Below are positions 15,423 through 32,958 of a stretch of DNA of 48,385 nt, piece after piece. The translations under genes and the position numbers were made by a program. Position 1 is the stretch's first letter. Every line of letters starts with the position of its first letter. A model generated the notes under the pieces. That model saw nothing but the letters and a program-made list of their open reading frames with translations, made no database searches and was not told where the DNA came from. This stretch comes from Syntrophaceae bacterium (lineage in GTDB: Bacteria; Desulfobacterota; BSN033; UBA1163): contig JACAEV010000077.1 in NCBI GenBank assembly GCA_013388645.1, positions 1-48,385 of the forward strand, written 5' to 3'.

Positions 15423-15424
15423 AA

Positions 15425-15552: not shown

Positions 15553-15558
15553 TTTAAT

Positions 15559-16416
15559 ATGCTCTGGCAACAACTCGCTAATGGAATTGCCATTGGAAGC
15601 GTCTACGCCCTGATCTCACTTGGGCTGACGATGGTTTATGGAATCCTACGTATCTTGCATGTGGCTCATGCCGGCATTTACGCTTTGGGGGCTTATGTTG
15701 GTCTGTTTTCTTTCAAGCTCGTCGGCAATTTCTGGATTTCTTTGATGGTCGGAATGGCTGGAGCAGCCATTGCCGGATATCTTGTGGAAAGGTTTTTGTA
15801 CACGCCCCTTCTTCATTTGCCGAGGATCGCTCCCCTTATCGTTTCTATTGGCCTTTTCACCGCCTTGGAGGAAGCTTTTCGTATCGTTGCTGGACCTCAT
15901 ACGCTGACTTACAACGCCCGTATTGGTCTGGGTGATCTATCCATCGGGAGCTTCCGTCTTACCGAGACACAGATTCTCATCCTCTTCATCACCATTATCA
16001 TCTTAATTTTTCTCTGGGCCTTCCTGACAAAAACCCGTACCGGGTTAGCGATGAGGGCATGTGCTCAGGACCCAGAGACCACCTCCTCTTTCGGGGTGAA
16101 TGTCAGCGCAATCATTGCAATCAATTTTATTATTGGATCAGCCATGGCTGGTGCGGCAGGGGTTTTGATCGGGGTCTATGATAACCAAGTTTGGCCGACG
16201 ATGGGCAGTATCCCGGCCTATAAAGCTTTAGCTATTGTTGTTCTCGGAGGATTGGGAAATATTCCAGGGACGGTGCTTGCATCAATCGTCGTAGGGCTGG
16301 CAGAGACGTTTTTCATTGGTGTTCTCGCTATTCCTTTTCCGAGAGATGCCGTGGCTTTCGTGGCCATGATTTTAGTTTTAATGTTCAAACCCTATGGGCT
16401 ATTAGGAAAAGCATAA
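15559..16416 (+). CDS. livH: branched-chain amino acid ABC transporter permease, LivH family
   Basis: 285-aa integral membrane permease with about eight hydrophobic segments. Family motifs visible: NGIAIGSVYALISLGLTMVY at the N-terminus, the cytoplasmic coupling region RTGLAMRACAQDPETTSSFG, and AIVVLGGLGNIPGTVLAS near the C-terminus. It begins at ATG 15559 with no strong Shine-Dalgarno. Partner of LivM and of the LivG/LivF ATPases just downstream. Intact and of normal length. Confidence 0.93.
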   Translation: MLWQQLANGIAIGSVYALISLGLTMVYGILRILHVAHAGIYALGAYVGLFSFKLVGNFWISLMVGMAGAAIAGYLVERFLYTPLLHLPRIAPLIVSIGLFTALEEAFRIVAGPHTLTYNARIGLGDLSIGSFRLTETQILILFITIIILIFLWAFLTKTRTGLAMRACAQDPETTSSFGVNVSAIIAINFIIGSAMAGAAGVLIGVYDNQVWPTMGSIPAYKALAIVVLGGLGNIPGTVLASIVVGLAETFFIGVLAIPFPRDAVAFVAMILVLMFKPYGLLGKA

Positions 16417-16472
16417 CCATTTCGTGAGTCGGGAGGCTTAAACTTCACCCCTTACGCCTTACGGTATTAAAG

Positions 16473-17339
16473 ATGATCAGCGGATACCTCATCACAATCC
16501 TGATCACTATCCTCATTTATGCTATGCTGGCGCATAGCCTCAACCTCATCACAGGGCATGCGGGCCAGATCTCACTGGGGCATGCGGCCTTCTTCGGGAT
16601 CGGTGCCTATAGCTCGGCGATGCTCTATACGGAGGCTGGGTTTCCCTTCTGGATTTCTGTTCCTCTGGCCGCTGTGGTCGCAGGAATCATCGGAGCCCTG
16701 CTTGGAATCCCTTGCTTGCGAGTACGTGATGATTTTCTGGCCATCACTACGATGGGAATCAATTTTGTGGTAGAGGCCATTTTCCTCTATATTCCCTTTT
16801 TTGGTGGAGCCATGGGAATCGGGGGAATCAACCTTCCTAAATGGTTTGGACGCGACATGACCAAGCCTGAATATTTCTTTATTATTCTTATCACCTTCGG
16901 CTTACTCCTCCTTGTGGATCGTCAACTGGGTCGCTCATGGATCGGTTTGGCATGGGCTTCGATTCGGGAGGATGAACAGGCGGCAGGGGCCATGGGGGTG
17001 GATGTGGTTCGTTTTAAAGTTTTGGCATTTATCTTAGGGAGCGCTATCGCTGGATTAGCGGGGGGATTCTACGCTCATTTCTTAACCTTTATCATGCCGC
17101 AGAATTTTGGTTTTGGACAATCCATTGTCATCCTTTGCATGGTCGTCTTCGGCGGCATTGGGACCCGTTGGGGCCCAATCATTGGGGCCGTGATTCTGGG
17201 AATTTTGCCGGAAATCTCCAGGCCTATCATGGAATACCGCATTTTGATCTATGGGGTTCTCCTTTTGGCCATGATGCGATTTCAACCAGGTGGTCTATTA
17301 GGGGCGGAGTCGATTCTTTCAAGAACTTTTCGGCGATAG
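16473..17339 (+). CDS. livM: branched-chain amino acid ABC transporter permease, LivM family
   Basis: 288-aa permease, second membrane subunit of the importer. Conserved LivM features: HSLNLITGHAGQISLGHAAF, IPCLRVRDDFLAITTMGI, and the coupling helix WASIREDEQAAGAMGVD, followed by VVFGGIGTRWGPIIGAVIL. It starts at ATG 16473. The 56-nt spacer before it contains short direct units CCTTACGCCTTACGG, another degenerate repeat type. Normal length and intact. Confidence 0.93.
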   Translation: MISGYLITILITILIYAMLAHSLNLITGHAGQISLGHAAFFGIGAYSSAMLYTEAGFPFWISVPLAAVVAGIIGALLGIPCLRVRDDFLAITTMGINFVVEAIFLYIPFFGGAMGIGGINLPKWFGRDMTKPEYFFIILITFGLLLLVDRQLGRSWIGLAWASIREDEQAAGAMGVDVVRFKVLAFILGSAIAGLAGGFYAHFLTFIMPQNFGFGQSIVILCMVVFGGIGTRWGPIIGAVILGILPEISRPIMEYRILIYGVLLLAMMRFQPGGLLGAESILSRTFRR

Positions 17340-17369
17340 GTTATTGCTTTTGGCGTCAGGGGTGAGTGG

Positions 17370-18116
17370 ATGACTCTTTTAGAGGTGAAGGCTCTTAGCA
17401 AAGAATTCGATGGCCTTCGAGCTTTAGATGGGGTGAGTTTTGCCGCTCGGGGGGGCGAGATCCTGGGAATCATTGGTCCGAATGGAGCAGGTAAAACCAC
17501 CCTCTTCAACATTATCTCAGGGATTTATCCTCCCTCGGGGGGAGAAATCAATTTTGAGGGGAAGTCCATTCTTCGTTTGAAGCCACATCAAGTCAGTCGT
17601 TTGGGCATTGGCAGGACTTTTCAAATTGTCCGCCCCTTCCAAAATTTGGATGTGGAGGCCAATGTTATGGTTGCTTTTGGACATCGGGTCTATCCATCTC
17701 TGTGGAAGTCCGCTGGCTCGGTTTGGCAGCCGGAAATTCAGAAGGAGGTTCAAGATCTCATTGATCGAGTTGGCCTTCGGCCTCATTTAAAACAAATAGC
17801 CAAAACCCTTCCTCTCGGCTTTAAAAAACGTCTTGAAATCGCACGTGCCTTAGCACTCCAACCCCGTCTTCTTCTCCTCGATGAGCCCTCCGCAGGCTTG
17901 CGGTTTGAAGAATCCCTCCAGCTCATGGGACTCATCCGTCAGGTATGCGATCAAGGGATTGGTATTCTTCTCATCGAGCACAACATGCATGTTGTCATGG
18001 ACCTTTGCAAGCGAATTGTCGTTCTGGATCACGGCTCAAAGATTGCTGAAGGTTCTCCTGAGGAGATACGCTCAAACCCTTTGGTCATCCAGGCTTATTT
18101 GGGGAAGGAGGCGTAA
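17370..18116 (+). CDS. livG: branched-chain amino acid ABC transporter ATPase, LivG family
   Basis: 248-aa ATPase. Walker A GPNGAGKTT at about residues 36-44; GRTFQIVRPFQNLDVEANVM is the typical LivG Q-loop region; Walker B is RLLLLDEPSAGL; the switch histidine is in LLIEHNMHVVMDL. Odd point: the ABC signature, usually LSYGQQR-like in LivG, reads LPLGFKKRLEIARAL, so the canonical Ser/Gly-Gln core is altered. The C-terminal IRSNPLVIQAYLGKEA is standard. It ends immediately before livF (adjacent codons). Confidence 0.92.
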   Translation: MTLLEVKALSKEFDGLRALDGVSFAARGGEILGIIGPNGAGKTTLFNIISGIYPPSGGEINFEGKSILRLKPHQVSRLGIGRTFQIVRPFQNLDVEANVMVAFGHRVYPSLWKSAGSVWQPEIQKEVQDLIDRVGLRPHLKQIAKTLPLGFKKRLEIARALALQPRLLLLDEPSAGLRFEESLQLMGLIRQVCDQGIGILLIEHNMHVVMDLCKRIVVLDHGSKIAEGSPEEIRSNPLVIQAYLGKEA

Positions 18117-18824
18117 ATGTTAAAGGTGCAAGATATTGAAGTTTCTTATGGCGAGTTTCTAGCCCTCAGGGGGATCAATTTCACAGTGGAGGAGGGAGAG
18201 TTAGTTACAATCATTGGAGCAAATGGGGCGGGCAAAAGTACGATTCTTCGGGCCGTCATGGGTTTGGTGAGATGCCGTAAGGGGAATGTCTTTTTTCAGG
18301 GAGGGGATATCACATTCAGTCCGTCTTACCAAAGAGCCCGTTTGGGCATTAGCCTTGTCCCAGAAGGGCGTAAGATCTTCCCTGACCTGACCGTGGCTGA
18401 AAATCTATTGATGGGCGCCTATACCCAAAGGGACAAAAAAGCGCTTCCCTCCTACATGGAAGAGGCCTTTACTCTTTTTCCAGTGTTAAAAGAAAGACGA
18501 AATCAAGTGGGAAAAACCCTCAGCGGAGGGGAGCAGCAGATGCTCGCCATTGCTCGGTCGCTCATGTCCCAACCACGAATGATCTTGATGGATGAGGTTT
18601 CCTTAGGTTTGATGCCGATCTATGTCGAAGAGACATTTAAAGTCATCGAGAATCTCCACCGACGGGGAGTGACCATTCTCTTGGTTGAACAGAACGCCCG
18701 CAAAGCCCTTGGAGCCGCAAACCGGGGCTATGTGCTTGAGACAGGAGAAATTGTTTTAAGCGATTCGAGCCAAAGGCTGGCCTTAAATCCTCAGGTCCAG
18801 AAAGCCTACTTGGGTGGTACCTAA
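18117..18824 (+). CDS. livF: branched-chain amino acid ABC transporter ATPase, LivF family
   Basis: 235-aa ATPase. Walker A GANGAGKST, LivF-type LVPEGRKIFPDLTVAENLLM, intact signature TLSGGEQQMLAIARSLM, Walker B RMILMDEVSLGLMP (Val in place of the usual Pro after Glu), and VEQNARKAL containing the switch region. It starts at ATG 18117, directly after the livG stop, with AAGGAGG overlapping the livG end. Last transporter gene before hutU, 77 nt away. Confidence 0.93.
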   Translation: MLKVQDIEVSYGEFLALRGINFTVEEGELVTIIGANGAGKSTILRAVMGLVRCRKGNVFFQGGDITFSPSYQRARLGISLVPEGRKIFPDLTVAENLLMGAYTQRDKKALPSYMEEAFTLFPVLKERRNQVGKTLSGGEQQMLAIARSLMSQPRMILMDEVSLGLMPIYVEETFKVIENLHRRGVTILLVEQNARKALGAANRGYVLETGEIVLSDSSQRLALNPQVQKAYLGGT

Positions 18825-18901: not shown

Positions 18902-20623
18902 ATGGAAAAGAGAAAAGTGAAGCTTAAAGAAAGGGTAGAGACCTTAACCGGGGTTCAAGTGGGAATTAAGGCCCCTCGAGGGTCAAAAGTCTCCTGTAAA
19001 AGCTGGCAAACGGAGGCGGCACTGAGGATGTTGATGAATAATCTCGATCCTGAGGTGGCTGAAAAACCCGCCGAGCTGATTGTTTATGGAGGTACTGGAA
19101 AAGCGGCCAGGAGTTGGGAGGCTTATCATTTATTGGTTAAGTGTTTGAGAGATTTAGAAGAGGATGAGACATTACTCGTCCAATCAGGGAAACCTGTCGG
19201 GATCTTTAAAACTCACAACGATGCCCCTCGCGTCTTAATTTCCAATTCCATGTTGGTTCCCCAATGGGCCAACTGGGAGAAGTTTAGGGAATTGGAGGAA
19301 CTCGGACTTACGATGTATGGCCAGATGACCGCAGGAAGCTGGATCTATATTGGCACGCAGGGAATTCTTCAGGGGACTTATGAGACATTTGCCTCCGCTG
19401 CCAAGAAACATTTTGGAGGATCCTTGAAAGGGAGGCTCCTTCTTTCAGCAGGCCTTGGAGGAATGGGAGGAGCTCAGCCTTTGGCGGCGACCATGAATGA
19501 AGGGGTTTTTTTAGGAGTGGAGGTTGATCCAGAAAGGATCAAACGGCGTCTTGAGACCGGATACTTGGATGTAATGGCGGATCGCTTGGAAGATGCCCTC
19601 ATCATGGCCTTAAGTGCGAAAGAGAAAGGAATTCCAAAATCCATTGGCCTGGTAGGAAATGCGGCAGAGATTCATCCAGAGATTGTGAAGAGAGGGATTG
19701 TTCCGGATCTGGTGACAGACCAGACTTCAGCTCACGATTCATTAAATGGTTATGTCCCTGCTGGATTGACGCTTGATGAGGCTCTTGAACTCCGGAGAAA
19801 AGATCCACAAACTTATATTCGTCGGGCCATGGAGTCTATGGCCCTTCATGTTCAGGCGATGCTGGAATTACAGAAGAAGGGTTCGATTGTCTTCGACTAT
19901 GGAAATAATATTCGAGCCCAAGCATTCCAGGCGGGAGTGAAGGAGGCCTTCAGCTATCCCGGATTTGTTCCTGCCTTTATCCGCCCTCTCTTTTGTGAAG
20001 GGAAAGGACCATTCCGATGGGCAGCTCTATCAGGAGATCCTGAAGATATCTATAAAACTGATGATGCCATTCTCAGGGAATTTCCAGACGATGTGTCTTT
20101 AGCAAGATGGATTCGATTGGCGAAGGAGAAAGTAAAATTTCAGGGATTGCCAGCTCGGATCTGTTGGCTTGGCTATGGGCAGAGGGCTCGGATTGGAAAA
20201 GTCTTTAACGAGATGGTTGCCAAGAAAAAATTGAAGGCTCCCATTGTGATCGGAAGAGACCACCTAGATAGTGGTTCGGTGGCTTCTCCCTACCGCGAGA
20301 CAGAAGGGATGAAAGATGGGAGTGATGCCATTGCTGACTGGCCTATCTTGAATGCTCTTCTCAATGTAGCTGCAGGTGCGACCTGGGTTTCAGTCCATCA
20401 CGGGGGAGGAGTGGGGATTGGCTATTCAATTCATGCGGGGATGGTGGTGGTCGCAGACGGAACCAAAGAGGCGGAAAAGAGATTATTCAGGGTGTTGACC
20501 ACCGATCCCGGAACCGGTGTGATGCGCCATTCTGATGCTGGATACGAAGAGGCGATTGATACGGCAAGACAAAAAGGAATTAAAATTCCAGGGGTGACGA
20601 TTTACCAGCGAGAAGATTCGTAA
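18902..20623 (+). CDS. hutU: urocanate hydratase
   Basis: Converts urocanate to 4-imidazolone-5-propionate with tightly bound NAD+, second step of histidine degradation. Family motifs are clear through the 573 aa: [69 protein letters not shown], and the region [14 protein letters not shown] with its cysteine. [20 protein letters not shown] and [12 protein letters not shown] follow. It starts at ATG 18902 after GAGGGAAGAG. Situated downstream of the liv importer and upstream of hutH. Soluble cytoplasmic enzyme, apparently complete. Confidence 0.96.
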
Positions 20624-20738: not shown

Positions 20739-22268
20739 ATGAGATTTGTCATCATTGACGGGAGAAATCTTACCTTGGAGCAGGTATTAGAAGTGGCGGA
20801 GAGGAGGGCACAAGTGAAACTTTCTCCCTCTGTTGAGAAGAAAGTGAGACGTTCGAGAGATTTTATTGAAAAGGCTCTTGATAGGGGTGAAAAGATCTAT
20901 GGGGTCACCACAGGATTTGGGTTGCTCTCCGATCAATTGATTGACCATTCCGAAATTGAAGATCTCCAAAAAAATTTGATCAGAAGCCATAGCGTAGGAG
21001 TTGGGCCCTACTTCGATGAAGTGACCACCCGTGCCATCATGTTATTACGTGCTAATGTGATTGCCATGGGATATTCAGGCGTTCGGATAGAAGTTTTAAA
21101 ACGTCTCGTCGATATGATCAATAAAGGAGTTCATCCCCTTGTCCCGGAACAGGGATCCGTGGGGGCAAGCGGAGATTTAGCCCCATTAGCCCACCTGACC
21201 TCTGTATTAATGGGAGAAGGGGAGGCCGTATTTAAAGGAAAGGTGATGTCTGGGGAGAGGGCGATGGAAATGGCTGGCATTCCCATTCTCACTCTTAAAG
21301 CAAAAGAGGGTCTTGCCTTGGTGAACGGCACCCAAGTCATGGCTGCCGTAGGTCTTTTAGCTCTACTCCGTGCGGAGAGACTCTCTAAATTAGCAGACAT
21401 TATTGGAGCTTGCACCTTGGATGCCTTAAAAGGGACCCTGAGTGCCTTCGATTTGGATATTCAGAGAGTCCGCCCTTTTCCAGGTTCCCTGGCTGTCTCA
21501 AAAAATTTTAAGAAGTTGGGAAGATTTAGCGAGATCGCCAAATCGCATCAATTCTGTTCAAAGATTCAGGATGCCTATTCTCTTCGTTGCATTCCACAAG
21601 TTCATGGGGCGGTCAGAGATGCCCTCGCCTATGTTCGGAAGATTCTGGAAATTGAAGTCAACTCTGCCACGGACAATCCTCTGGTCTTTGCAGAGCAGAA
21701 GAAAATCCTTAACTGTGGAAATTTCCATGGTGAACCGGTTGCTTTTGCCTTGGATCTTTTGGGGATTGCGGTCTCTGAGTTGGGAAGTATCTCTGAGCGG
21801 AGAATTGAAAAGCTCATCAACCCTGCTTTGTCAGGATTGCCCGCCTTTCTCACCACAGAGGGAGGGCTTCACTCCGGGCTGATGATGGTTCAAGTAAGCG
21901 CTGCCGCGCTGGCCTCTGAGAATAAAATCCTTGCTCACCCTGCCAGTGTTGATTCCATTCCGACGTCTGCAGATAAAGAGGATCATGTTTCGATGGGGAC
22001 GATCGCCGCCAGAAAGGGAAGAGACATTACAAGAAATGTGGAGCATATTTTAGCGATGGAATTGCTTTGTGCCACCCAAGGTTTAGAATTTCTGCTTCCC
22101 CTCCAACCTGGAATCGGGATCAAAGAAGCTTGGCGAGTCGTTCGAGAAAAGATTCCACCGATCAAAGGGGATCGAAGATTTAGTGAGGACATCAAAGAAA
22201 TTCAGCGGTTAATCGAATCCGGGGAACTTCTTCGCCGCGTCCAAAAAGTGGTGGGAAAACTCGAATAG
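20739..22268 (+). CDS. hutH: histidine ammonia-lyase
   Basis: Deaminates histidine to urocanate, first step of the pathway. The MIO electrophile forms from Ala143-Ser144-Gly145 in [15 protein letters not shown], essentially the same numbering as characterised HutH. Other family segments: [72 protein letters not shown], and the C-terminal [20 protein letters not shown]. 509 aa, complete. ATG at 20739 after GGGGAGAG. An ergothionase-like relative cannot be excluded from sequence alone, but the hut context favours histidine. Confidence 0.95.
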
Positions 22269-22305: not shown

Positions 22306-23595
22306 TTATACGCCAATCTTGAATATCTTAGGGACAATCATCGAAATGCTTGGAAAGTATGCGAAGATCAGAAGAACACCGATCAGGAGGATGACGAAAG
22401 GCCAGATCGTCTTAGACAACCGCTCGATGGAAATTTTGGCAATCGAGCAACCCACGAAAAGGCAGATGCCCACAGGGGGGGTGATCATACCCACAACCAG
22501 ATTAAAGACGAAGATAAATCCGACATGAAGAGGATGGAAGCCGACATTGATCAGGATCGGAGCTAATATGGGAGCAAAGAGAATGATAGCTGCTCCTGTT
22601 TCCATAAAACACCCAGTGATGAGGAGAAGAATATTGATAATGAACATTAAAAGATAAGGGTTGTTTGTTATGGAAAGGAAGAAAGAGGCGACCTTTTCTG
22701 GCACCTGTTGTGTGGCTAAGAACCATAGAGTAATATTGGCCGTTCCGATAATAAACATGATGACCGAACTGGTGATGGCGCAGTTAACTAAGATGCGCGG
22801 GATGTCCTTCACCTTTAATGTTTTAAAGACGAAGAAACCAAAGATGAAGGCGAAAAAAACAGCGATGGCAGCGGCTTCGGTAGCCGTGAACACTCCTGAC
22901 ATGATCCCACCAAGAATAATGACAGGGAGGACAAGGGCGGCCACCGCTTCCCGACTGCCTTTGACGACCTGACGAAGAGTAGGTCTCCTCTCGTTTTTGG
23001 GGTAGTTTTTCTTCCGGGCATAGTAATAGATGAGAGCCATCATGGACAATCCCATGATGACGCCAGGGATCAGACCAGCAAGAAAGAGCCCTCCGATGGA
23101 GACATTCATGGTGACCCCATAGACAACCATAGTAATACTTGGTGGAATGATCGGTCCTAAGGTGGCTGCCGAGGCAACGACAGCCGTAGAAAAATCGAGA
23201 TCATATCCCTCCTTGGTCATGGAGGGAATCAGGACTGTGCCCAGAGCAGAGGCATCTGCAACCGCTGAACCGGTTATGCCAGAAAGTAACATCTCTGCTA
23301 CCACAAGGGTGTGTCCCAGACCTCCCCGAATATGCCCAACCAGGATATTGGAAAATTTAATGAGCCGGTCTGTCACACCACCTAAATTCATCAGGTCACC
23401 GGATAAGATAAATAAAGGGATGGCCATCAGAGAAAACATATCCATTCCATTGAATATCTTTTGGGCAACGAGGACAATGGAGTATTCCCCCTTAATGAGA
23501 ACGACGGCAAGAGAGCACAAGCCGAGGCAAAAAGCGATCGGAATTCCAATAATCAAACTGATGACAAAAACAGTTCCTAAGAGGAGGAGGACCAT
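22306..23595 (-). CDS. dctM: TRAP transporter large permease, DctM family
   Basis: 429-aa 12-TM secondary permease of a tripartite ATP-independent importer. Typical segments: MAIPLFILSGDLMNLGGVTDRLI, MLLSGITGSAVADASALGTVLIP, and AATLGPIIPPSITMVVYG (each split by hydrophobic stretches), with a C-terminal LVVGMITPPVGICLFVG. Its start overlaps the dctQ 3' end by 19 nt. It is convergent with hutH, which ends 37 nt away. No terminator hairpin is visible between them. Confidence 0.94.
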   Translation of the reverse strand: MVLLLLGTVFVISLIIGIPIAFCLGLCSLAVVLIKGEYSIVLVAQKIFNGMDMFSLMAIPLFILSGDLMNLGGVTDRLIKFSNILVGHIRGGLGHTLVVAEMLLSGITGSAVADASALGTVLIPSMTKEGYDLDFSTAVVASAATLGPIIPPSITMVVYGVTMNVSIGGLFLAGLIPGVIMGLSMMALIYYYARKKNYPKNERRPTLRQVVKGSREAVAALVLPVIILGGIMSGVFTATEAAAIAVFFAFIFGFFVFKTLKVKDIPRILVNCAITSSVIMFIIGTANITLWFLATQQVPEKVASFFLSITNNPYLLMFIINILLLITGCFMETGAAIILFAPILAPILINVGFHPLHVGFIFVFNLVVGMITPPVGICLFVGCSIAKISIERLSKTIWPFVILLIGVLLIFAYFPSISMIVPKIFKIGV

Positions 23596-24089
23596 CGTTT
23601 TTTCCTTGCTTTTACCCAGTTTTCAAATAACAAGCTTAATAATTGGATAATCATGAAAAGTCCGCCCACAGGGGCGGCTAAGTAGGCATAAGCCATCGAG
23701 AAAAGTAAAGCAGGCGAGTCTTGATCTCGGACAGCCCAGGACACCCGAAAGCCTCCGATGGTGAAATAAATGAGGAAAATAAGGATTCCCATTTTGGCAA
23801 TCAGATTAACCCATTCTCTCATTTGTTTCGGAATTCGATTGATTATAAATTCGACACCGATATGAAACCCATATTTTAAAGCGAGACTTGCCCCAAGAAA
23901 GGAGACCCAAATCATCAAGTATCTGGCCACCTCCTCAGACCAGGAAAGGGAATAGAGAAACAGGTATCGCAGGAAGACCTGGATGATGATGATGACCGTC
24001 ATCACGCCGACCATCCCCACGAGAGTATATTGGACGATCTTTTCAGAGGTTTGGCTCACTTTTGTTAAGATCTGTTCCATTGGTCCCAT
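23577..24089 (-). CDS. dctQ: TRAP transporter small permease, DctQ family
   Basis: 170-aa four-helix membrane subunit. Helix pattern matches DctQ: TLVGMVGVMTVIIIIQVFLR, YSLSWSEEVARYLMIWVSFLG (the family hallmark, split across helix two), GFHIGVEFIINRIP, and two C-terminal helices. Sits between a dctP and dctM on the same strand. Overlaps dctM by 19 nt, implying coupled synthesis. Intact. Confidence 0.92.
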   Translation of the reverse strand: MGPMEQILTKVSQTSEKIVQYTLVGMVGVMTVIIIIQVFLRYLFLYSLSWSEEVARYLMIWVSFLGASLALKYGFHIGVEFIINRIPKQMREWVNLIAKMGILIFLIYFTIGGFRVSWAVRDQDSPALLFSMAYAYLAAPVGGLFMIIQLLSLLFENWVKARKKRWSSSS

Positions 24090-24181: not shown

Positions 24182-25231
24182 TCATTCCTTTTCAGAGTCT
24201 TTTGCTGATTTCAAAGCCATGTCAATCCATTTTTTATCAATCTTCTTTTCAGCAAATGTCTTTTCCACGAATTCGATTACTGGCTTTTGGGATTTTTGTC
24301 TAAACACTTCGAGTTCTTTCTCTGTGGGGGTATAGATTTCCATTCCCTTGTCCTGTAAACTCTTCACCCCATTGTAGACATTGCGCACATTTTGCCCTCT
24401 TTGAACAGATAGGGTGACCTTGGTCGCATCTATCAGAAGCCTCTGGAGATCAGGAGGCAAAGAAAGGAAAAATTTATCATTGATGAGGATCGGGAGGAAA
24501 CTGTAAATATGACCATCGAGGATGATGTGTTTCGTGACCTCGTTGAATTTCATAGATTCGATGAGAGAAATAGGAGCTTCCCAGCCATCCACCACTCCCT
24601 GCTGAAGCGCCATATAGACTTCACCCCAGGCGATCGGAGTGGGGCTTGCCCCCAGCGATTTGACCAGAGCCATGTATCCAGGATGTTCCATGACCCTGAT
24701 TTTTAATCCTTTCATGTCCTCCACACTTTTAATCGGCTTGTTTCGGGTAGAGAAGTGTCTAAAACCATTTTCTCCAATGCCGAGGGATCGGACACCCGTT
24801 TTCTTTCTCATCTCTTCCATCAATGCTTTCCCAAATGACCCATCGAGTGATCGGAAGGCAACGGCCTCGTTGGAATATAAGTAAGGGATTCCCAGGACCA
24901 TGATCTCGGTGAAGAATCCCGCCATTGGGCCTTCCGCAATCCAGCACATTTCGATGGTTCCTAATTTTGTTCCCTCAAATTGTTCCCTTTCTTTTCCAAG
25001 CTGATTGGAAGGGTAGATGTCCACCTTCAGCCTCCCTGGGGCCTTCTGTTCTACAAATTTTTTGAAGACGACTGCACCTCGATGGAGCGCTTCTTCCTCA
25101 TCCGGTGGCATGCCCGTGGCGAATTTGATGGTGATCGGAGCCGCCCATAATTGAGCCGTGGCGAATACGATGCAGGTGAAGGTGACGACCGAAAAAAAAC
25201 CCATTCTTATGATCCACTTCCCTTTTGACAT
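24182..25231 (-). CDS. dctP: TRAP transporter solute-binding protein, DctP family (copy 1)
   Basis: 349-aa periplasmic binding protein. The N-terminal signal peptide has a hydrophobic core MGFFSVVTFTCIVFATAQL with likely cleavage after LWA. The mature part has ITIKFATGMPPDEEEALHRG, YPSNQLGKEREQFEG, and the ligand arginine region MKGLKIRVMEHP with TPIAWGEVYMALQQGVVDG. Very similar and equal in length to the paralogue at 25539-26588, with which it also shares a promoter block. Nearer to dctQM, so probably the binding protein transcribed with them. Ligand unknown; organic acids or amino acids are typical. Confidence 0.93.
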   Translation of the reverse strand: MSKGKWIIRMGFFSVVTFTCIVFATAQLWAAPITIKFATGMPPDEEEALHRGAVVFKKFVEQKAPGRLKVDIYPSNQLGKEREQFEGTKLGTIEMCWIAEGPMAGFFTEIMVLGIPYLYSNEAVAFRSLDGSFGKALMEEMRKKTGVRSLGIGENGFRHFSTRNKPIKSVEDMKGLKIRVMEHPGYMALVKSLGASPTPIAWGEVYMALQQGVVDGWEAPISLIESMKFNEVTKHIILDGHIYSFLPILINDKFFLSLPPDLQRLLIDATKVTLSVQRGQNVRNVYNGVKSLQDKGMEIYTPTEKELEVFRQKSQKPVIEFVEKTFAEKKIDKKWIDMALKSAKDSEKE

Positions 25232-25442: not shown

Positions 25443-25475
25443 AAGGGGGAATGGATTTCAAAACCATTCCCCCTT
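25443..25475 (-). terminator. Rho-independent terminator after dctP copy 2
   Basis: Stem AAGGGGGAATGG (25443-25454) with CCATTCCCCCTT (25464-25475), 12 bp perfect, 9-nt loop, followed on the minus strand by TTTTGATT. It separates the two dctP transcripts. A second GC-rich hairpin lies at 25504-25519 (CCGCCC/GGGCGG) just upstream in the transcript. Confidence 0.7.
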
Positions 25476-25538
25476 CCCTTGACCGGAACGTGCCCTGCAA
25501 GCCCCGCCCTTGTGGGCGGAGAGTTTCACGCAGCAAGG

Positions 25539-26588
25539 TTAATCCTTCTCTGATGCCTTAGCGGATTTGAGTGCCATGTCAATCCATTTTTTATCAATCT
25601 TCTTTTCTGTAAATGTTTTATCCAGAAATTCGAGGACGGGTTTTTGGGACCTCTCTCTGAACATCTGCAGCTCCTTTTCGTTTGGGGAATAGATCTCCAT
25701 GCCTTTGTCTTGGAGGCTTTTTACCCCATCATAAACCTTCTTCACATTTTGTCCTCTTTGCACTGTTGTTGCTGTTATTGCGACATCCACGATCACCTTT
25801 CGAATATCCGGCGTCAGGGACATAAAGAATTTGTCATTGATCAGGATGGGGAGAATGCTATAGACATGGCCATCCAGAGTTAGATATTTCTGGACCTCAT
25901 TAAATTTGGCAACTTCAATGACCGAGACAGGATTTTCCTGACCGTCCACCACTCCCTGCTGCAGTGCCATGTAAACTTCTCCCCAGGCGATGGGGGTAGG
26001 GCTTGCCCCTAACGCCCTCACCATGGCCATATGGGCAGGATTTTCCATGGTTCTGATCTTCAAGCCTTTCATATCCTCCGGGGATTTAATCGGTCTGACA
26101 CGATTGGTGAAATTTCTAAATCCGTTTTCTCCAATACCCAGAGCCCTTACCCCTGTTTTCTTCCTCATCTCCTCAAAAAGGGCTTTTCCGAAGGCACCGT
26201 CAAGGGACTTCCAAGCCGTCACTTCATTGGCATAGAGATAAGGAATTCCAATCACCATGATTTCAGGGAAGAAGCCAGCCATCGGCCCTTCGGCGATCAT
26301 ACACATCTCAATCGTTCCCAATTTGACCCCTTCAAACTGCTCTCTCTCTTTTCCCAACTGATTGGCGGGATAGATATCCACCTTGACCATTCCCGCGGTC
26401 TTCTGCTCCACCATCTTTTTAAATACCACGACTCCTCGATGAAGGGCCTCTTCCTCATCGGGCGGCATTCCATGGGCGAATTTGATGGTGATGGGTGCCG
26501 CCCACCCCAAGGACCCATGAAATGCGATGAAAATGAATGCGACCAATAAAGAAACACCAATTTTCACTATAAACTTCCCATTTGACAT
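25539..26588 (-). CDS. dctP: TRAP transporter solute-binding protein, DctP family (copy 2)
   Basis: 349-aa paralogue of the neighbouring DctP. Signal peptide around VSLLVAFIFIAFHGSLGWA, cleaved probably before APITIKF. The body follows copy 1 nearly residue for residue (KFAHGMPPDEEEALHRGVVV, YPANQLGKEREQFEG, MKGLKIRTMENPAHM, ALQQGVVDGQENPVSVIE). Substitutions are concentrated in ligand-facing loops (WEAPIS against QENPVS), which suggests different ligand preference. It has its own promoter block and terminator, so it may be expressed separately while sharing the DctQM permease. Divergent from the corrinoid protein gene. Confidence 0.93.
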   Translation of the reverse strand: MSNGKFIVKIGVSLLVAFIFIAFHGSLGWAAPITIKFAHGMPPDEEEALHRGVVVFKKMVEQKTAGMVKVDIYPANQLGKEREQFEGVKLGTIEMCMIAEGPMAGFFPEIMVIGIPYLYANEVTAWKSLDGAFGKALFEEMRKKTGVRALGIGENGFRNFTNRVRPIKSPEDMKGLKIRTMENPAHMAMVRALGASPTPIAWGEVYMALQQGVVDGQENPVSVIEVAKFNEVQKYLTLDGHVYSILPILINDKFFMSLTPDIRKVIVDVAITATTVQRGQNVKKVYDGVKSLQDKGMEIYSPNEKELQMFRERSQKPVLEFLDKTFTEKKIDKKWIDMALKSAKASEKD

Positions 26589-26880: not shown

Positions 26881-27540
26881 ATGGATCTATTTAATGAAAT
26901 GGCGAAAGCGGTGATTGAAGGGGATGAGGAAAAGACGGTATCTTTAGCACAAGAGGCATTAGCCAAGGGGGTGGACCCCATGGAAGCCATTGAAAAGGGT
27001 TTCGCGGAGGGGATGAAGGAGATCGGGAGGCTTTTTGAAGCCTTAGAGATCTATTTGCCCCAAGTGATCATCTCTGCGGAGGCGATGACGGCAGGGGTGG
27101 ATCTATTTCGTCAGCACCTTCTTAGCAAAGGGGGAGAGACTTCTCAGAAAACCGTATTACTGGGAACCATCCAAGGGGATGTTCACGATATTGGAAAGAA
27201 TATTGTTAAGATCATGCTGGAAAGTAATGGGTTTAAGGTATATGACCTCGGGAGAGATGTGCCCGTGTTCGATTTTATCGAAAAGGTAAAGGAGCTCCGT
27301 CCTGACATTGTTGGAGTTTCTGCATTGATGACGACGACCATGGTCCACATGCCAAAATTAATTGAAGCCCTTCAGGAAAGTGGATTACGGGATCAGGTCA
27401 AAGTGATGTTGGGAGGAGCACCTGTTCTTCCAGAATGGGCGAAAAAGGTTGGAGCGGATGGTTATGGTGAGTCGGCCATGGAAGCTGTGCGAGTGGCTAA
27501 AAAATTAGTGGGCCTTTCAAGTGAGGGAGAGAGAGCATGA
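26881..27540 (+). CDS. corrinoid (cobalamin-binding) methyl-carrier protein, MtmC/MttC type
   Basis: 219-aa shuttle that accepts a methyl group on cobalt from the partner methyltransferase. The N-terminal helical cap (about residues 1-85) is the B12-binding-2 type. The cobalamin domain has the DxHxxG motif as GDVHDIGKN with axial His102, and later VGVSALMTTTM and VMLGGAPVLPEWAKKVGADGY, the standard nucleotide-tail pocket. AAGGATG lies 6-10 nt before the ATG. The stop overlaps the next gene as ATGA, so carrier and methyltransferase are probably made together. No B12 riboswitch is evident upstream. The reductive-activation protein (RamA-like) and the methyl acceptor transferase are not in this window. 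Confidence 0.94.
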   Translation: MDLFNEMAKAVIEGDEEKTVSLAQEALAKGVDPMEAIEKGFAEGMKEIGRLFEALEIYLPQVIISAEAMTAGVDLFRQHLLSKGGETSQKTVLLGTIQGDVHDIGKNIVKIMLESNGFKVYDLGRDVPVFDFIEKVKELRPDIVGVSALMTTTMVHMPKLIEALQESGLRDQVKVMLGGAPVLPEWAKKVGADGYGESAMEAVRVAKKLVGLSSEGERA

Positions 27541-28928
27541 GAGACTCAAAAAGATTTTTTGATTTCATCGAAGTAATCAAACGAGCTGAATCCGGAGAAG
27601 CGATGAAGGAGTCAGACTACGATAAACGCTTAGGGAGGAAAGCGCTCTCCCTGATGAAACAGTATGAAATCCATTATGATCCTCAATGCATTATTCCGAG
27701 CGATGACGGTTTGGCCGATCGTATCTTCCAGGCAGCGGTGAATCTCTTTCTGGATATGGGAGTCTATTGTACAGATACACAGAGGGTGATTTCCTTCGCG
27801 CCAGAAGAATTGCAATGGGCATTGGAGAACGTCCCCCAAGAGGTCAACTATGGAAGAGATAAAGAAACAATTACGGTTTACCCAAGAAAGGTGGAAGACC
27901 GAAGAGATCCTGTTTGCTTTTTCTCAGCGGTGGGAACACCTGTGACAGAAGAAATGTTTCTACCCGTCGCTCAAAGTTACGCGCAGGAACCTTTGGCGGA
28001 CACTTTTTCCGGCCCTCTGATCACCAGTTATAAAGGAATTTCAGTCACTTCAGGGTCTCCGATTGAAGTAGAAGCTGCCATCTGGAATACACAAATGTTG
28101 CGAGAAGCCGCGAGGAGGGCAGGTCGACCCTATATCGGAATCCATAATTTTCAATCCACAGGCGAAAAAACGGATGCAACCATTGCCTCTGCTCAAGAGA
28201 AGTTCGGGGCTTTTCCAGGAGATGGATTGTTGGTTGCTGCGATTGCGGAGATGAAGGTAGATTTTGAACGACTGAAGAAGGTGGCATTCCTCCGCCAATC
28301 TCCCTATGTGCTGGGTGCCCTATATGGACCTCTGATGGGAGGCTATGCAGGAGGACCCGAAGGGACGGCTATTGCTTTGGTTGCCCATCATTTCTTAGGC
28401 CTTCTGGTCTTTTCTGGCGAGCGGCACAATTCCTTTCCCATTCACATCCACCATGTTTGCAACACCACGAGGGAGATGCTATGGCTGATCTCGGTGACAG
28501 GTCAGGCATTGGCGAGAAATACTCCATTGATCATCGCTTCGAATGCTTTTATGGCCTCTGGGCCATGCACGGAGATGGTGATTGATGAACTGTGTGCACA
28601 ATCCATCACCTCCACCGTATCGGGTTGGCATCTCAATCCTTGTGCCGTGGCAAAGAATCGTTACCCAATGAGGTGTAGCGGCATGGAACCTCGAATTCAT
28701 GCAGAAGTAGGACATCGCGTGGCACAAATCGGACTAACCCGAAAGGAAGCCAATCGGATTGTCTTGAGGTTGGTCAAAGGGTATGAAAAAGCAATACCAG
28801 AGGCGCCCATCGGAAAAATGTTTCACGAGTGCTACTCCGTGGATAAAATTCGCCCCACCGATGAATATGACAGTTTATTTGCAAAGAAAAAAAAGGAGTG
28901 GGGAGGATTAGGATTCGAGGTGATTTGA
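27537..28928 (+). CDS. MtmB-family (monomethylamine:corrinoid) methyltransferase lacking pyrrolysine
   Basis: 463 aa against about 458 for archaeal MtmB. As I recall the MtmB sequence, shared landmarks run end to end: FFDFIEVIKRAESGE, MGVYCTDTQRV, GGYAGGPEGTAI, SGPCTEMVIDELCAQSI, CSGMEPRIHAEVG and MFHECYSVDKI...PTDEY. In archaeal MtmB the sequence AGRPGMGV is followed by pyrrolysine 202. Here AGRPYIGI is followed by His203 (codon CAT, 28143-28145). There is no in-frame TAG, so no amber read-through is needed. The barrel fold should be kept, but the pyrrolysine amine-activation chemistry cannot be. Substrate therefore unknown. Overlaps the corrinoid gene by 4 nt and abuts the HisC-like gene. 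I rate the family assignment high and the substrate as open. Confidence 0.85.
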   Translation: MRDSKRFFDFIEVIKRAESGEAMKESDYDKRLGRKALSLMKQYEIHYDPQCIIPSDDGLADRIFQAAVNLFLDMGVYCTDTQRVISFAPEELQWALENVPQEVNYGRDKETITVYPRKVEDRRDPVCFFSAVGTPVTEEMFLPVAQSYAQEPLADTFSGPLITSYKGISVTSGSPIEVEAAIWNTQMLREAARRAGRPYIGIHNFQSTGEKTDATIASAQEKFGAFPGDGLLVAAIAEMKVDFERLKKVAFLRQSPYVLGALYGPLMGGYAGGPEGTAIALVAHHFLGLLVFSGERHNSFPIHIHHVCNTTREMLWLISVTGQALARNTPLIIASNAFMASGPCTEMVIDELCAQSITSTVSGWHLNPCAVAKNRYPMRCSGMEPRIHAEVGHRVAQIGLTRKEANRIVLRLVKGYEKAIPEAPIGKMFHECYSVDKIRPTDEYDSLFAKKKKEWGGLGFEVI

Positions 28929-30026
28929 ATGAAAATGGAAACATTGGCAAGAAAAGGGATTCTCCGGATTACCTCCTATGTGCCTGGAAGATCGATTGAG
29001 GAAGTTCAAAAGGAATTTGGAGCGAAAAGATGGGTAAAACTTGCCTCCAATGAGAATCTCCTCGGTCCCTCACCGAAGGCAGTGGCAGCCATCCAGAAGG
29101 AACTCCTCCATATTCATCTTTACCCGGAAGGACCGTGCACCATTTTAAGAAAGGCCATCGCCGAAAAGTTGGCGGTCCCAGAGGGGAGGATTGTCATTTC
29201 GAATGGGGCTGATAATTTAATCCTCATGATTGCCAGTGCATTTGTAAATGGCGGGGAGGAAGTCGTGATGGCGGATCCCACTTTCCCGGTCTATACCAAT
29301 GTCACTCAGATCATGGGGGGAAAGCCGATTAAAGTTAAATTGAGAGATTTTACCCACGATCTAGAGGCCATGTTCAAGAAAGTTAACCGAAAGACAAAGC
29401 TGGTCTTCATCTGCAATCCCAATAACCCAACGGGTACGACCATTTCGATCAAAGCGTTGAATGATTTTCTCTCAAAGCTACCAAGGCATGTCATCGTCGT
29501 TCTGGATGAGGCGTATGGAGATTTTGTAGAAGAGGTGTTCTGTCCAGATGGATTGGATTATATTAAAGCAAGGAAGCAGATGATTGTTCTCCGGACCTTC
29601 TCAAAGGTTTATGGACTGGCAGGGCTGAGAATTGGTTATGCCTTGGGAAGAGAGGATCTCATCCATTGCCTTTACCAAGTCAGGGACCCTTTTCCCGTCC
29701 ACCGGATTGCCCAGGTCGCTGCCGTGGCTGCATTGAATGACAAGGATCATGTCCTCCGGTCCATTCAATGCGTTCACGAAGGGAGGAGGTATCTTTACAA
29801 AGAATTAGATAAGATGGGAATCCCTTATGTTCCCAGTCAAGCGAACTTCATTTTTATCGATTTTGAGAAAAACTCGGAAGAACTGTTCTTGAACTTTTTA
29901 AAAGAGGGGATCATTATCCGTCCAGGAAAGGTTTGGGGATATCCTACGTTTGCCAGAGTGACCATTGGAAGGATGGAGGACAACCAGAGATTTATCAGGG
30001 CATTGAAGAAAATATATGGACGATGA
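28929..30026 (+). CDS. hisC: HisC-like PLP-dependent aminotransferase
   Basis: 365-aa fold-type I aminotransferase closest in appearance to histidinol-phosphate aminotransferase. WVKLASNENLLGPSPKAVAA, VISNGADNLI, VFICNPNNPTGTT, VVLDEAYGDF, and the Schiff-base lysine Lys226 in TFSKVYGLAGLRIGYALG are all present, with the C-terminal substrate Arg in RVTIGRMEDN. It begins at the base after the methyltransferase stop, so it is tightly co-transcribed. Either this is biosynthetic HisC, or an aminotransferase acting on an imidazole amino acid in the local pathway. The CobD branch (threonine-phosphate decarboxylase) is a less likely relative. The symbol denotes family, not proven function. Confidence 0.85.
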   Translation: MKMETLARKGILRITSYVPGRSIEEVQKEFGAKRWVKLASNENLLGPSPKAVAAIQKELLHIHLYPEGPCTILRKAIAEKLAVPEGRIVISNGADNLILMIASAFVNGGEEVVMADPTFPVYTNVTQIMGGKPIKVKLRDFTHDLEAMFKKVNRKTKLVFICNPNNPTGTTISIKALNDFLSKLPRHVIVVLDEAYGDFVEEVFCPDGLDYIKARKQMIVLRTFSKVYGLAGLRIGYALGREDLIHCLYQVRDPFPVHRIAQVAAVAALNDKDHVLRSIQCVHEGRRYLYKELDKMGIPYVPSQANFIFIDFEKNSEELFLNFLKEGIIIRPGKVWGYPTFARVTIGRMEDNQRFIRALKKIYGR

Positions 30027-30086: not shown

Positions 30087-31337
30087 ATGATTGAAATCGA
30101 TCTTCTCATTAAAAGCGCAGAAGAACTTCTTACCCTTTCTTCTTCTTTTAAAGATGAATCAGGATTAGGGATCGTACGAAATGGTGCGGTTGCCATTAAA
30201 GAGGGCAAAATCCTCGGGGTCGGAGGTACCGATCAATTATTGGGAGATTTTGTTTTAGGGGCCCAAGGGCAGGAGGTCAATGCAACAGGAAAAGTGGTGA
30301 TGCCTGGGTTGATTGATTCGCATACCCATCTTATCTTCGCTGGGTCAAGGGAAAGTGAGTTTGAGCAACGGATTCAGGGTCTCTCTTACCTTGATGTTGC
30401 CGAGAGAGGAGGGGGGATCCTTTCAACGGTCGAGGCAACACGAAAAGCCTCCTTCGATGAGCTTTTTTCCCTCGGTAAAAAGAGATTGGACCGAATGCTC
30501 TCCAAGGGAGTAACCACCATCGAAGCCAAAAGTGGATATGGGCTTTCTCTACAAGATGAACTTAAGATTCTCAACGTCATGAAGGCATTGAATGAAATAC
30601 ATCCGATCGATATCGTCTCTACTTTTTTAGGAGCTCATACGATCCCTAAAGAATTTAGAGATGATCGGGCAAAATATATGGATTTACTAACCGAAGAAAT
30701 GATGCCCAGGGTTGCCCGTGGAAAAGCAGCTGAATTTTGCGATGTCTTCTGTGAGGAGAAGGCCTTCACTCTTGGGGAGTCGAAAAAGATTCTCGAGACA
30801 GGAAAACGCTATGGTCTTAAACCAAAGATCCATGCGGACCAATTAAGTCACGGTGGCGGAGCAGAACTGGCGGCTGAGGTGGGGGCGTTTTCAGCAGATC
30901 ACCTCGAATACGTGAGCCGAGAAGGGATCAGAAAATTGGCGGAGAAGAGAGTCATTGCCGTTTTGTTGCCTGGAGCGAGTTTCTTCCTCTCTATGAAAAA
31001 GTATCCACCAGCAAGGGAAATGATCCAGGAGGGCGTATGCGTCTCTTTGGCAACGGATTTAAATCCTGGTTCCTCCATGACCGAGTCCCTTCCTCTCATC
31101 ATGACCATGGGGTGTACCCTGTTCAAGATGACGCCGAGAGAGGTGATCCAAGCTACCACCCTGCACGCAGCAAAATCCATCGATCGAGAAAGTGAGATAG
31201 GCAGTCTGGAAGTGGGAAAACAAGCGGACATTTTGGTGCTCGATATTCCTAACTATCGTTACCTCCCGTACCATTTTGGTGTAGACCATACCGAATGGGT
31301 CATTAAGAAGGGGAGGGTAGTTTACAAAAATCAATGA
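30087..31337 (+). CDS. hutI: imidazolonepropionase
   Basis: Hydrolyses imidazolone-5-propionate to N-formimino-L-glutamate, third step of histidine degradation. 416-aa amidohydrolase with the metal-binding GLIDSHTHLIFAGSRESEF, substrate segment TTIEAKSGYGLS, FLGAHTIPKEF, second metal region KIHADQLSHGGGAELAAEVG, SADHLEYVS, and catalytic ATDLNPGSSMTESLP. Standard C-terminal strand IGSLEVGKQADILVLD. Complete. Separated from hutUH by the TRAP block but on the same strand as them. Confidence 0.95.
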   Translation: MIEIDLLIKSAEELLTLSSSFKDESGLGIVRNGAVAIKEGKILGVGGTDQLLGDFVLGAQGQEVNATGKVVMPGLIDSHTHLIFAGSRESEFEQRIQGLSYLDVAERGGGILSTVEATRKASFDELFSLGKKRLDRMLSKGVTTIEAKSGYGLSLQDELKILNVMKALNEIHPIDIVSTFLGAHTIPKEFRDDRAKYMDLLTEEMMPRVARGKAAEFCDVFCEEKAFTLGESKKILETGKRYGLKPKIHADQLSHGGGAELAAEVGAFSADHLEYVSREGIRKLAEKRVIAVLLPGASFFLSMKKYPPAREMIQEGVCVSLATDLNPGSSMTESLPLIMTMGCTLFKMTPREVIQATTLHAAKSIDRESEIGSLEVGKQADILVLDIPNYRYLPYHFGVDHTEWVIKKGRVVYKNQ

Positions 31338-31412: not shown

Positions 31413-31422
31413 GGGAGTGACC

Positions 31423-32319
31423 ATGCGCCTTTTAGAATGTGTTCCAAATATCAGTGAAGGCAGAGATCAAGGGAAGATTGCCTTGATGGTTGAAGATGTG
31501 AAAAAACATAGAGGGGTTAGACTTTTTGACTTTTCTTCAGATGAAGACCATCACCGGAGCGTCTTCACTTTAATCGGCGAACCCGAAGCGATCAAAGATG
31601 CCGTCTTCTCCCTGACGATGAAGGCCATTGACCTGATTGACATGAGGGAACATCGAGGAGGTCATCCGCGGTTGGGGGCAATCGATGTCGTCCCTTTTGT
31701 CCCCATCCAAGGGGTAGAGATGGAGGAGGCTGTCCGAATTGCCCATGAATTTGGAAAAGGGTTGGGAAAGAGAGGTATCCCTGTCTTTTTTTATGAGGAG
31801 GCGGCGGTCCAACCGGAGAGGAAAGATTTGCCAACCATCCGAAAGGGAGAATACGAGGGATTGGAAGAAAAACTGAAAGACCCGAAATGGAAGCCTGATG
31901 AGGGGCCTAATTCTTTTAACCCAAAATGGGGGGCGACCGTTGTTGGGGCTCGTTTTCCTTTGGTGGCCTATAATGTGAATCTCAAAACGAAAGACCTCTC
32001 CTTCGCCAAGGAGATTGCTAAAAAGGTTCGCTTCAAAGATGGGGGGTTTCCCCATGTCAGGGCAATGGGCATCGATCTCAAGGAAAAAGGAATGGTTCAG
32101 GTGTCGATGAACCTGACCAATTATCGAGTGACCAATATCCCGACTGTCTATGAGTTCATCAAGGAAGAGGCATTGAAAAGGGGGATCGAGATAGAAGGGT
32201 CCGAGATTGTGGGGTTGGTTCCTATGGAAGTTTTAGAAGGGGTCACCCAAGCGTATTTACGATATCCAAAATTTTCGATTCGGCAGGTTATTGAGCAGCG
32301 AATTTTAGAGTTTGTATGA
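31423..32319 (+). CDS. ftcD: glutamate formimidoyltransferase (FTCD N-domain type)
   Basis: Transfers the formimino group from formiminoglutamate to tetrahydrofolate, yielding glutamate. The N-terminus MRLLECVPNISEGRD is diagnostic. Other family segments: SSDEDHHRSVFTLIGEP, EHRGGHPRLGAIDVVPFVP, YEEAAVQPERKDLPTIRKG, GATVVGARFPLVAYNVNL, and the C-terminal MNLTNYRVTNIPTVYEFI. The ATG at 31423 is preferred over a GTG six bases earlier because GGGAG lies about 5 nt upstream and homologues begin MxxLxECVPN. 298 aa, the single-domain bacterial form. The cyclodeaminase is a separate downstream gene. Confidence 0.94.
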   Translation: MRLLECVPNISEGRDQGKIALMVEDVKKHRGVRLFDFSSDEDHHRSVFTLIGEPEAIKDAVFSLTMKAIDLIDMREHRGGHPRLGAIDVVPFVPIQGVEMEEAVRIAHEFGKGLGKRGIPVFFYEEAAVQPERKDLPTIRKGEYEGLEEKLKDPKWKPDEGPNSFNPKWGATVVGARFPLVAYNVNLKTKDLSFAKEIAKKVRFKDGGFPHVRAMGIDLKEKGMVQVSMNLTNYRVTNIPTVYEFIKEEALKRGIEIEGSEIVGLVPMEVLEGVTQAYLRYPKFSIRQVIEQRILEFV

Positions 32320-32331: not shown

Positions 32332-32958
32332 ATGGAACTCAGACGATTCTTAGAAAAGGTGGCAGCAGATACCCCAACGCCAGGAGGGGGAAGCGCGTCG
32401 GCCTTAGCAGGGGCTCTCTCTGCCTCACTTGTGGCAATGGTGGCTGGACTTTCTTTCAAGAAAGGTCAGTTAAAAAAGGGGAGGATTGAGCAGATCAGAG
32501 AAAAAGCGTTGCTCATTCGGGACAGGCTCATCCAAGCCATCATTGAAGATTCAAAATCTTTTGATGCCGTCATGAAAGCCATTCGACTCCCCAAAAACTC
32601 AGAAAAAGAACGTCTGTATCGAAGCAGGAGGATTCAAAAGGCTTATCAAAATGCCACCCTCTCACCTCGGTTGGTCTGTCGGCTATCAATTCAACTGTTG
32701 GAATATTCCAAACTGTTCATTTTAAAAGGGAATCCAAACACCCTGAGCGATGCCGGGGTGGCTGCCTTTCTTGCGGATGCGGCACTGGCGGGTGGACTCC
32801 TCAATATTGGAATCAATTTGGCTGCTTTGACAGATAAAAAGTTCATCGGAGAGATGAATCGATTCATACGGAGATGGACAAGAGAGAGAAACCGTCTCAT
32901 GAAGGAGATTCGGATAAAACTTTACCCATTCGGTATAGGGAGATCCTTCGCATTCTAA
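32332..32958 (+). CDS. formimidoyltetrahydrofolate cyclodeaminase
   Basis: Converts 5-formimino-THF to 5,10-methenyl-THF plus ammonia. 208-aa helical protein with the family signature TPTPGGGSASALAGALSASL near the N-terminus, VAMVAGLSFKKG, and a C-terminal SDAGVAAFLADAALAGGLLN that forms the second conserved patch. Lies 12 nt after the formimidoyltransferase, so the two halves of the bifunctional animal FTCD are encoded side by side. The carbon exits as methenyl-THF. FolD-type enzymes are not in the window. Confidence 0.92.
   Translation: MELRRFLEKVAADTPTPGGGSASALAGALSASLVAMVAGLSFKKGQLKKGRIEQIREKALLIRDRLIQAIIEDSKSFDAVMKAIRLPKNSEKERLYRSRRIQKAYQNATLSPRLVCRLSIQLLEYSKLFILKGNPNTLSDAGVAAFLADAALAGGLLNIGINLAALTDKKFIGEMNRFIRRWTRERNRLMKEIRIKLYPFGIGRSFAF

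Follow-up and report, generated by a model that had tools for sequence, protein, structure and literature searches.

The monomethylamine:corrinoid methyltransferase MtmB of Methanosarcina (structures 1L2Q, 1NTH and 1TV2) is a PF05369 enzyme with pyrrolysine (Pyl) at position 202, encoded next to the gene of its corrinoid partner. Members of another family, the Pyl-free MttB superfamily (PF06253/COG5598), demethylate quaternary amines only, such as glycine betaine (MtgB), carnitine (MtcB) and gamma-butyrobetaine (MtyB), and in bacteria the methyl group is passed to tetrahydrofolate (THF). Within the MtmB family itself, Pyl-free homologues have been recognized for years and one has a function: MtqB of Methanococcoides methylutens Q3c demethylates tetramethylammonium and choline (PMC13044021), showing that PF05369 enzymes can work without Pyl. 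The tree of that study spans 1,061 sequences, with and without Pyl, and the remaining Pyl-free MtmBs are described there as of unknown function (PMC13044021). Thus, the family as such is not new. Here, we describe a Pyl-free MtmB gene and its corrinoid partner within a histidine degradation (hut) locus of a Syntrophaceae bacterium of the phylum Desulfobacterota, carried on contig JACAEV010000077.1 of assembly GCA_013388645.1, whose 48,385-nucleotide stretch analyzed here is referred to as the window.

The window protein resembles Methanosarcina MtmB in its full-length PF05369 match, its fold and its adjacent corrinoid gene, but it has His203 instead of Pyl, has lost E229, E259 and Q333, and belongs to a bacterial hut locus with a TRAP importer. 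Like MtqB and MtqC, it forms a Pyl-free MtmB homologue with a corrinoid protein of its own; however, the MtqB/MtqC pair is archaeal, acts on quaternary amines (tetramethylammonium or choline) and transfers the methyl group to coenzyme M (PMC13044021). With the MttB superfamily it shares the logic of corrinoid-dependent, Pyl-free N-demethylation, whereas the folds superpose with a TM score of only about 0.5. The hut pathway with FtcD and FchA (hutH, hutU, hutI, ftcD and a cyclodeaminase gene) is found entire in one window locus, which departs from the usual pathway in having, between hutH and hisC/hutI, a dedicated importer of the TRAP type together with a corrinoid methyltransferase pair. What is new is the clade with His at the Pyl site, the importer-corrinoid-MtmB cassette that is swapped within the hut locus, and the link to hut genes that recurs in distinct parts of the MtmB tree. 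Our literature search found no paper joining MtmB to histidine degradation or monomethylamine methyltransferase to urocanate hydratase, and none combining corrinoid, histidine ammonia-lyase and demethylation. The original prediction, made from the window alone, knew of no described system with this gene set; our search agrees as regards the link between MtmB and histidine degradation, but not for Pyl-free MtmBs, which are known and, in the case of MtqB, active (PMC13044021).

RESULTS

The MtmB-family protein (27537..28928, forward strand, 463 amino acids [aa]) matches PF05369 with 339 bits (gathering threshold, 25), covering 2 to 446 of the 450 profile positions, and phmmer aligns it to the solved MtmB 1L2Q/1TV2 with an E value of 2e-73. 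Its AlphaFold model (pLDDT, 89.9) superposes on 1NTH, 1L2Q and 1TV2 with TM scores of 0.94 to 0.95. No in-frame stop (TAG) is present in the gene. The codon that replaces the Pyl TAG codon lies at 28143..28145 on the forward strand (27537 + 3 × 202) and reads as His at residue 203, which falls in the Pyl202 column of MtmB1 in the phmmer alignments to 1L2Q/1TV2, in a MAFFT alignment of 27 sequences, in three MAFFT modes and in a 102-sequence alignment. In the AlphaFold model, His203 is the third residue of strand 201-204, five after the Pro of AGRP; in that of L221, a genuine bacterial Pyl MtmB whose TAG was read as Lys, residue 202 is the third of strand 200-202, again five after the Pro of AGRP. 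The common strand register of these two predicted structures agrees with His203 occupying the Pyl position. E229, E259 and Q333, which we take to be active-site residues of MtmB, read E/E/Q in the Pyl-containing MtmB1 and correspond to L232, L262 and N336 of the window protein in the MAFFT alignment. Given His203 and these three replacements, the protein belongs to the MtmB family without being a monomethylamine methyltransferase of the Pyl type.

In a tree and alignment of 102 MtmB sequences, from which MtqB (ACT9XH_RS04775) was left out, His at the Pyl site marks a clade of 12 members, comprising the 4 of the window group and 8 copies from another class of the phylum with 49 to 54% identity. 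The sister group of this clade (n = 3) has Tyr at the site, and among the remaining copies Val, Gly, Leu, Met, Ile and further residues are found, or the site falls in a gap. As a control, Pyl-type MtmB copies with a single internal TAG were found in three genomes (G892, G1009 and G1095). Genuine MtmB genes with in-frame TAG occur in bacteria of the same phylum at loci L035, L219, L220 and L221, with several corrinoid genes nearby.

The cognate B12-binding corrinoid protein (26881..27540, forward strand, 219 aa) is MtmC/MtbC-like, with a TIGR02370 score of 241.3 bits against a cutoff of 215.3, matches to PF02310 and PF02607, and His102 within GDVHDIGKN, containing the DxHxxG ligand motif; its relatives in the PDB include 7xcn, 1y80 and 3ezx. 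Read in the DNA, its gene shares an ATGA overlap with the MtmB gene at 27537-27540, and no gap separates the latter from the HisC-like aminotransferase gene (28929..30026, forward strand, 365 aa) at the 28928/28929 junction. The original prediction had described these three genes, with a 4-nucleotide overlap and a zero-gap junction followed by hutI and the FTCD genes, and the open reading frames, coordinates and His102 motif are all as it said. Its placing of His203 at the Pyl202 site in a gene without in-frame TAG is confirmed by the alignment to MtmB structures and by the strand register of the models, and its Pyl-independent MtmB branch with a corrinoid partner is supported.

The gene order of the window locus is hutU-hutH-TRAP-corrinoid-MtmB-hisC-hutI-ftcD-fchA. 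Urocanate hydratase (hutU, 18902..20623; TIGR01228, 967 bits against a cutoff of 375), histidine ammonia-lyase (hutH, 20739..22268; TIGR01225, 681 bits against 539), imidazolonepropionase (hutI, 30087..31337; TIGR01224, 473 bits) and glutamate formimidoyltransferase (ftcD, 31417..32319; TIGR02024, 412 bits) are encoded on the forward strand, each above its equivalog cutoff. They are accompanied, also on the forward strand, by the cyclodeaminase-type protein fchA (FTCD_C, 32332..32958; PF04961, 175 bits; NF045657, 157 bits, below the cutoff of 275) and upstream by a Liv-type (HAAT) ABC importer, LivJHMGF (14253..18824), assigned by synteny in relatives and by the similarity of LivJ to branched-chain/HAAT binding proteins in the PDB. 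The TRAP importer occupies 22306-26588 on the reverse strand: a DctP-type solute-binding protein (25539..26588; PF03480, 303 bits), a second solute-binding protein (24182..25231), assigned from its counterparts in G258 and G398 and lacking in G299, a small membrane subunit (23577..24089), assigned by position and synteny, and a large membrane subunit (22306..23595), named from sequence and position.

Orthologues of the window MtmB are found in three relatives, with 83 to 87% identity, all within the same hut arrangement, and the gene order is kept in these four genomes of two genera; one distant Chloroflexota locus is the other relative found. The dN/dS ratio (nonsynonymous to synonymous substitution rates) is 0.05 to 0.08 for MtmB and 0.04 to 0.08 for the corrinoid protein. 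Both are under strong purifying selection, and the arrangement is more than chance.

Comparing the locus across the family, we found that Liv, hutU and hutH and, after them, hisC, hutI, ftcD and fchA are fixed, whereas the stretch separating hutH from hisC is a slot whose content changes. Four genomes have TRAP, corrinoid protein and MtmB there; in G237 the slot is filled by a related TRAP without the pair, in three genomes by an unrelated TRAP and in two by an NMT1-type ABC importer. Over loci L076 to L081, the slot (window 22306-26588) holds at least three unrelated importer types. In six relatives with the slot covered, the hut genes and HisC are kept and the corrinoid-MtmB pair is missing, and every family genome with a covered slot has a HisC-like gene between importer and hutI, with or without MtmB. 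The HisC-like gene thus persists in loci that lack the pair, which assigns it to the hut locus itself and marks corrinoid protein and MtmB as an accessory pair. HisC as third gene of a methyltransferase operon, as the original prediction had grouped it, was rejected for this reason. The HisC-like protein scores 340 bits against TIGR01141 (cutoff, 277) but is not the only such copy, as two further HisC proteins of the genome also exceed that cutoff; its unvarying place among the hut genes is suggestive of a catabolic function.

The history of G299 defines the accessory unit. Its TRAP, corrinoid and MtmB genes are near those of the other genus, with synonymous divergence (dS) of 0.36 to 0.87 to G258 (for the large TRAP subunit, 97% aa identity and dS of 0.36), whereas its HisC, HutI and HutH are nearer to its own genus, HisC, for example, having dS of 0.66 to G237 and 2.61 to G258. 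These opposing distances for the cassette and the flanking hut genes indicate that importer and methyltransferase pair were exchanged together between genera. Thus, the TRAP importer makes up a single cassette together with corrinoid protein and MtmB. Either the TRAP or the Liv importer had been proposed as partner of the enzyme; TRAP does travel with corrinoid protein and MtmB, and Liv belongs to the fixed portion of the locus throughout the family. No informative solved ligand was found among relatives of the TRAP and Liv binding proteins.

To place the locus in a wider context, we surveyed draft and metagenome-assembled genomes and found MtmB in 13 of 395 genomes of the phylum, 7 of 400 of Chloroflexota and 40 of 389 of a second class, from which 101 copies were read with their flanks. 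At least eight copies have hut genes within 10 kb, a lower bound given that many contigs are short; these are the window group (4), C229, L176, L190 and L193/L263, amounting to five independent cases. At a density of roughly 1.2 hut loci in a genome of 4.5 Mb, about 0.5 copies are expected by chance, compared with the five independent cases, or four without the window; for the latter, a simple Poisson model, which ignores operon clustering and is therefore indicative only, gives P of about 0.0016. The neighbor survey that the original prediction had called for thus comes out in favor of a hut association. Of the three outcomes that it had listed as grounds for refutation, none was observed. 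The seven Chloroflexota genomes with MtmB have none beside hut genes.

Each of the other cases has its own arrangement. C229, from the same assembly (locus L003, G000:C229, 352-4956), encodes a GntR/UTRA regulator, HutU, a corrinoid protein, a second MtmB that is 32% identical to the window MtmB, and a HAAT binding protein, in this order; the HutU is 91% identical to the window HutU, and the regulator has HutC as its best NCBIfam match (181 bits, below the cutoff of 220). In the second class, L176 has a HutH (703 bits) near a His-clade MtmB, L190 has HutH and HutU beside a UTRA regulator, a corrinoid protein and MtmB, and L193/L263 has corrinoid-MtmB, MttB, a UTRA regulator, HutU and HutH. A GntR/UTRA (HutC-like) regulator is thus found at three hut-linked MtmB loci. 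In G1002 and G1137, where the MtmB contigs are cut short, a hutU-hutH pair adjoins a RACo-type corrinoid activase. Taken together, the link between MtmB and hut genes is real and recurrent, in separate parts of the MtmB tree.

We also considered the divergent HutU of L190 and L193 as a thiourocanate or S-methyl-thiourocanate hydratase of an ergothioneine route and rejected this, as urocanate hydratase matches best and the scores are far below the other two cutoffs. The partial L193 piece is slightly below the hutU cutoff, and the full-length protein scores 421 bits. The long HutU is the usual hut enzyme of the second class, beside FtcD and HutI in many genomes. In this class of the phylum, HutU proteins of about 700 aa are encoded together with HutH, an FdhF-like molybdopterin protein and a protein resembling ferredoxin at L251, L252, L253, L263 and L268; such loci adjoin a RACo corrinoid activase in two genomes and MttB and MtmB in G903.

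The genome of the window also encodes candidate partners for methyl transfer. There are two RACo activases, on contigs C212 and C141, and an MtrH-family protein (317 bits over a cutoff of 287), along with AcsE-like proteins. Genes for an activase and a methylcorrinoid:THF methyltransferase are thus both present, and we infer that they serve this pair. At L101 (6515-9973), a 1152-aa protein that joins a RACo-type activase to an FAD/NAD(P) oxidoreductase domain is encoded beside an MtrH-family methyltransferase and a corrinoid protein.

Beyond the hut-linked loci, Pyl-free MtmBs appear in several other contexts. A large expansion of Pyl-free MtmBs is seen in G279, a genome of the same class, with 14 PF05369 matches (L026, L028, L030 and L089 to L093), varied importers and OCD-type and MttB-type neighbors, and without hutU. 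By eye, genes resembling hisG/hisD/hisC of histidine biosynthesis follow closely on MtmB copies and two MttB-like genes in a Chloroflexota locus (L046), and at L030, L031, L033, L034, L039, L041, L088 and L090 Pyl-free MtmBs lie beside class III aminotransferase-, alanine dehydrogenase- or HAD hydrolase-like proteins, a hint that these clades, too, use N-methyl amino acids. Elsewhere in the window, an OCD/mu-crystallin-type dehydrogenase gene is followed by one for a D-glutamate-cyclase-like protein (36095-38341), and OCD homologues adjoin MtmB genes in L090 and L091 as well. Positions 1-642 hold the 3' end of a 23S rRNA gene and then 5S rRNA; regulation by a riboswitch was considered and rejected, Rfam matches being to rRNA only.

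DISCUSSION

A plausible reading, and the one that we prefer, is that the cassette is an accessory of the hut locus that carries out corrinoid-dependent demethylation of an imported N-methylated histidine derivative and feeds the product to the hut pathway. That importer and enzyme share a substrate, and one worth having in a hut locus, is best supported by their joint exchange in G299. The TRAP importer would take up a compound of the N-methylated histidine type; the likeliest cargo would be histidine methylated on a ring nitrogen (tau- or pi-methylhistidine) or a closely related molecule, for example, N-methylurocanate. We rank ring-N-methylated histidine first because the cassette has a single methyltransferase, the hut enzymes follow directly, and imidazole can leave neutral if its other nitrogen is protonated. 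The MtmB-family protein would bind this substrate and pass the methyl group to Co(I) of the corrinoid protein (26881-27540), which a RACo-type activase of the genome would keep reduced, and an MtrH/MtgA-like or AcsE-like protein would presumably move the methyl group on to THF. His203 may act as a general acid or a stacking partner that lets imidazole leave neutral. The freed histidine or urocanate would then enter HutH, HutU, HutI and FtcD, with the formimino group going to the same THF pool. The direction of methyl flow and the choice of partner proteins are likewise proposals. More tentatively, the His-clade Pyl-free MtmBs may constitute a dedicated anaerobic corrinoid route that demethylates the imidazole ring (or N-methylated histidine) for the hut pathway, with other MtmB clades recruited independently.

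Several points weigh against this reading. Like the methylated imidazole of the original prediction, which on the whole is partly supported, the substrate is one that we infer from gene anatomy. A neutral N-methylimidazole is chemically harder to demethylate than a quaternary ammonium, and its other ring nitrogen must be protonated; carboxylates are the usual ligands of DctP-type TRAP binding proteins. The C229 case comes from a 5.6-kb contig, in a draft genome whose contamination is estimated at 4.9%. Hut genes are within the available flanks for only 5 of the 12 His-clade copies, with one member outside the window group lying beside hutH, and the Tyr sister copies are in G279, a genome without hutU. 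Finally, the sole characterized Pyl-free MtmB acts on quaternary amines (PMC13044021).

The main alternative is an N-alpha-methylated histidine, including stepwise demethylation of hercynine (histidine betaine) or its partly demethylated forms, with an MttB-type enzyme removing the first methyl group, MtmB-type enzymes the later ones, and histidine entering the hut pathway. The second class fits this well: genes for His-clade MtmB, V-clade MtmB and Pyl-free MttB-type enzymes occur together there, in one locus or one genome (L175, L176, L173 and L193/L263), two of these loci are near hutH/hutU, and Pyl-free MttB enzymes usually act on quaternary betaines. However, an MttB gene is absent from the window cassette and the three orthologous loci, the wider genome of the window not having been searched for it, and we know of no Pyl-free enzyme for demethylation of secondary or tertiary amines. 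We consider this route unlikely, although it is the strongest competitor of the ring-methylated substrate.

A little less probable still is an MtqB-like demethylase of quaternary amines (choline, tetramethylammonium or another betaine) that resides in the hut locus through shared delivery of one-carbon (C1) units to THF. MtqB is the one Pyl-free MtmB with demonstrated activity and is promiscuous for choline, quaternary methylamine (QMA) and, to a small extent, monomethylamine (PMC13044021), and FtcD and FchA yield THF-bound C1 units. A shared C1 pool does not explain the preference seen here, however, since the hut link recurs in separate parts of the MtmB tree with hutU/hutH each time rather than with general C1 genes, and a HutC-like GntR/UTRA regulator is present three times.

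That the cassette merely landed in a locus tolerant of importer swaps, with no functional tie, is improbable. The hutH-hisC slot is indeed freely exchanged among relatives, and 93 of the 101 MtmB copies have no hut neighbor, but the cassette is kept in two genera under strong selection, its corrinoid and MtmB genes are packed codirectionally with hisC, and the association has arisen independently elsewhere. A monomethylamine methyltransferase acting as archaeal MtmB, despite the common family and fold, is very hard to reconcile with the lack of a Pyl codon, the replacement of E229, E259 and Q333, and the difference from true Pyl copies in related bacteria at the Pyl site.

The tie to hut genes gives part of the large Pyl-free MtmB group a testable substrate class, for which inexpensive reagents exist (methylhistidines, hercynine and methylurocanate), and a clade marked by His at the Pyl site. 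It also bears on the role of Pyl itself, as its place is taken by His, Tyr, Val, Leu or Met in members of the family. If our preferred reading of a cassette for N-methylated histidine is true, a corrinoid enzyme would act on an N-methylated histidine or imidazole, a reaction without precedent in the literature searched, and the methylated histidine released from muscle protein or from methyl-coenzyme M reductase would have an anaerobic sink.

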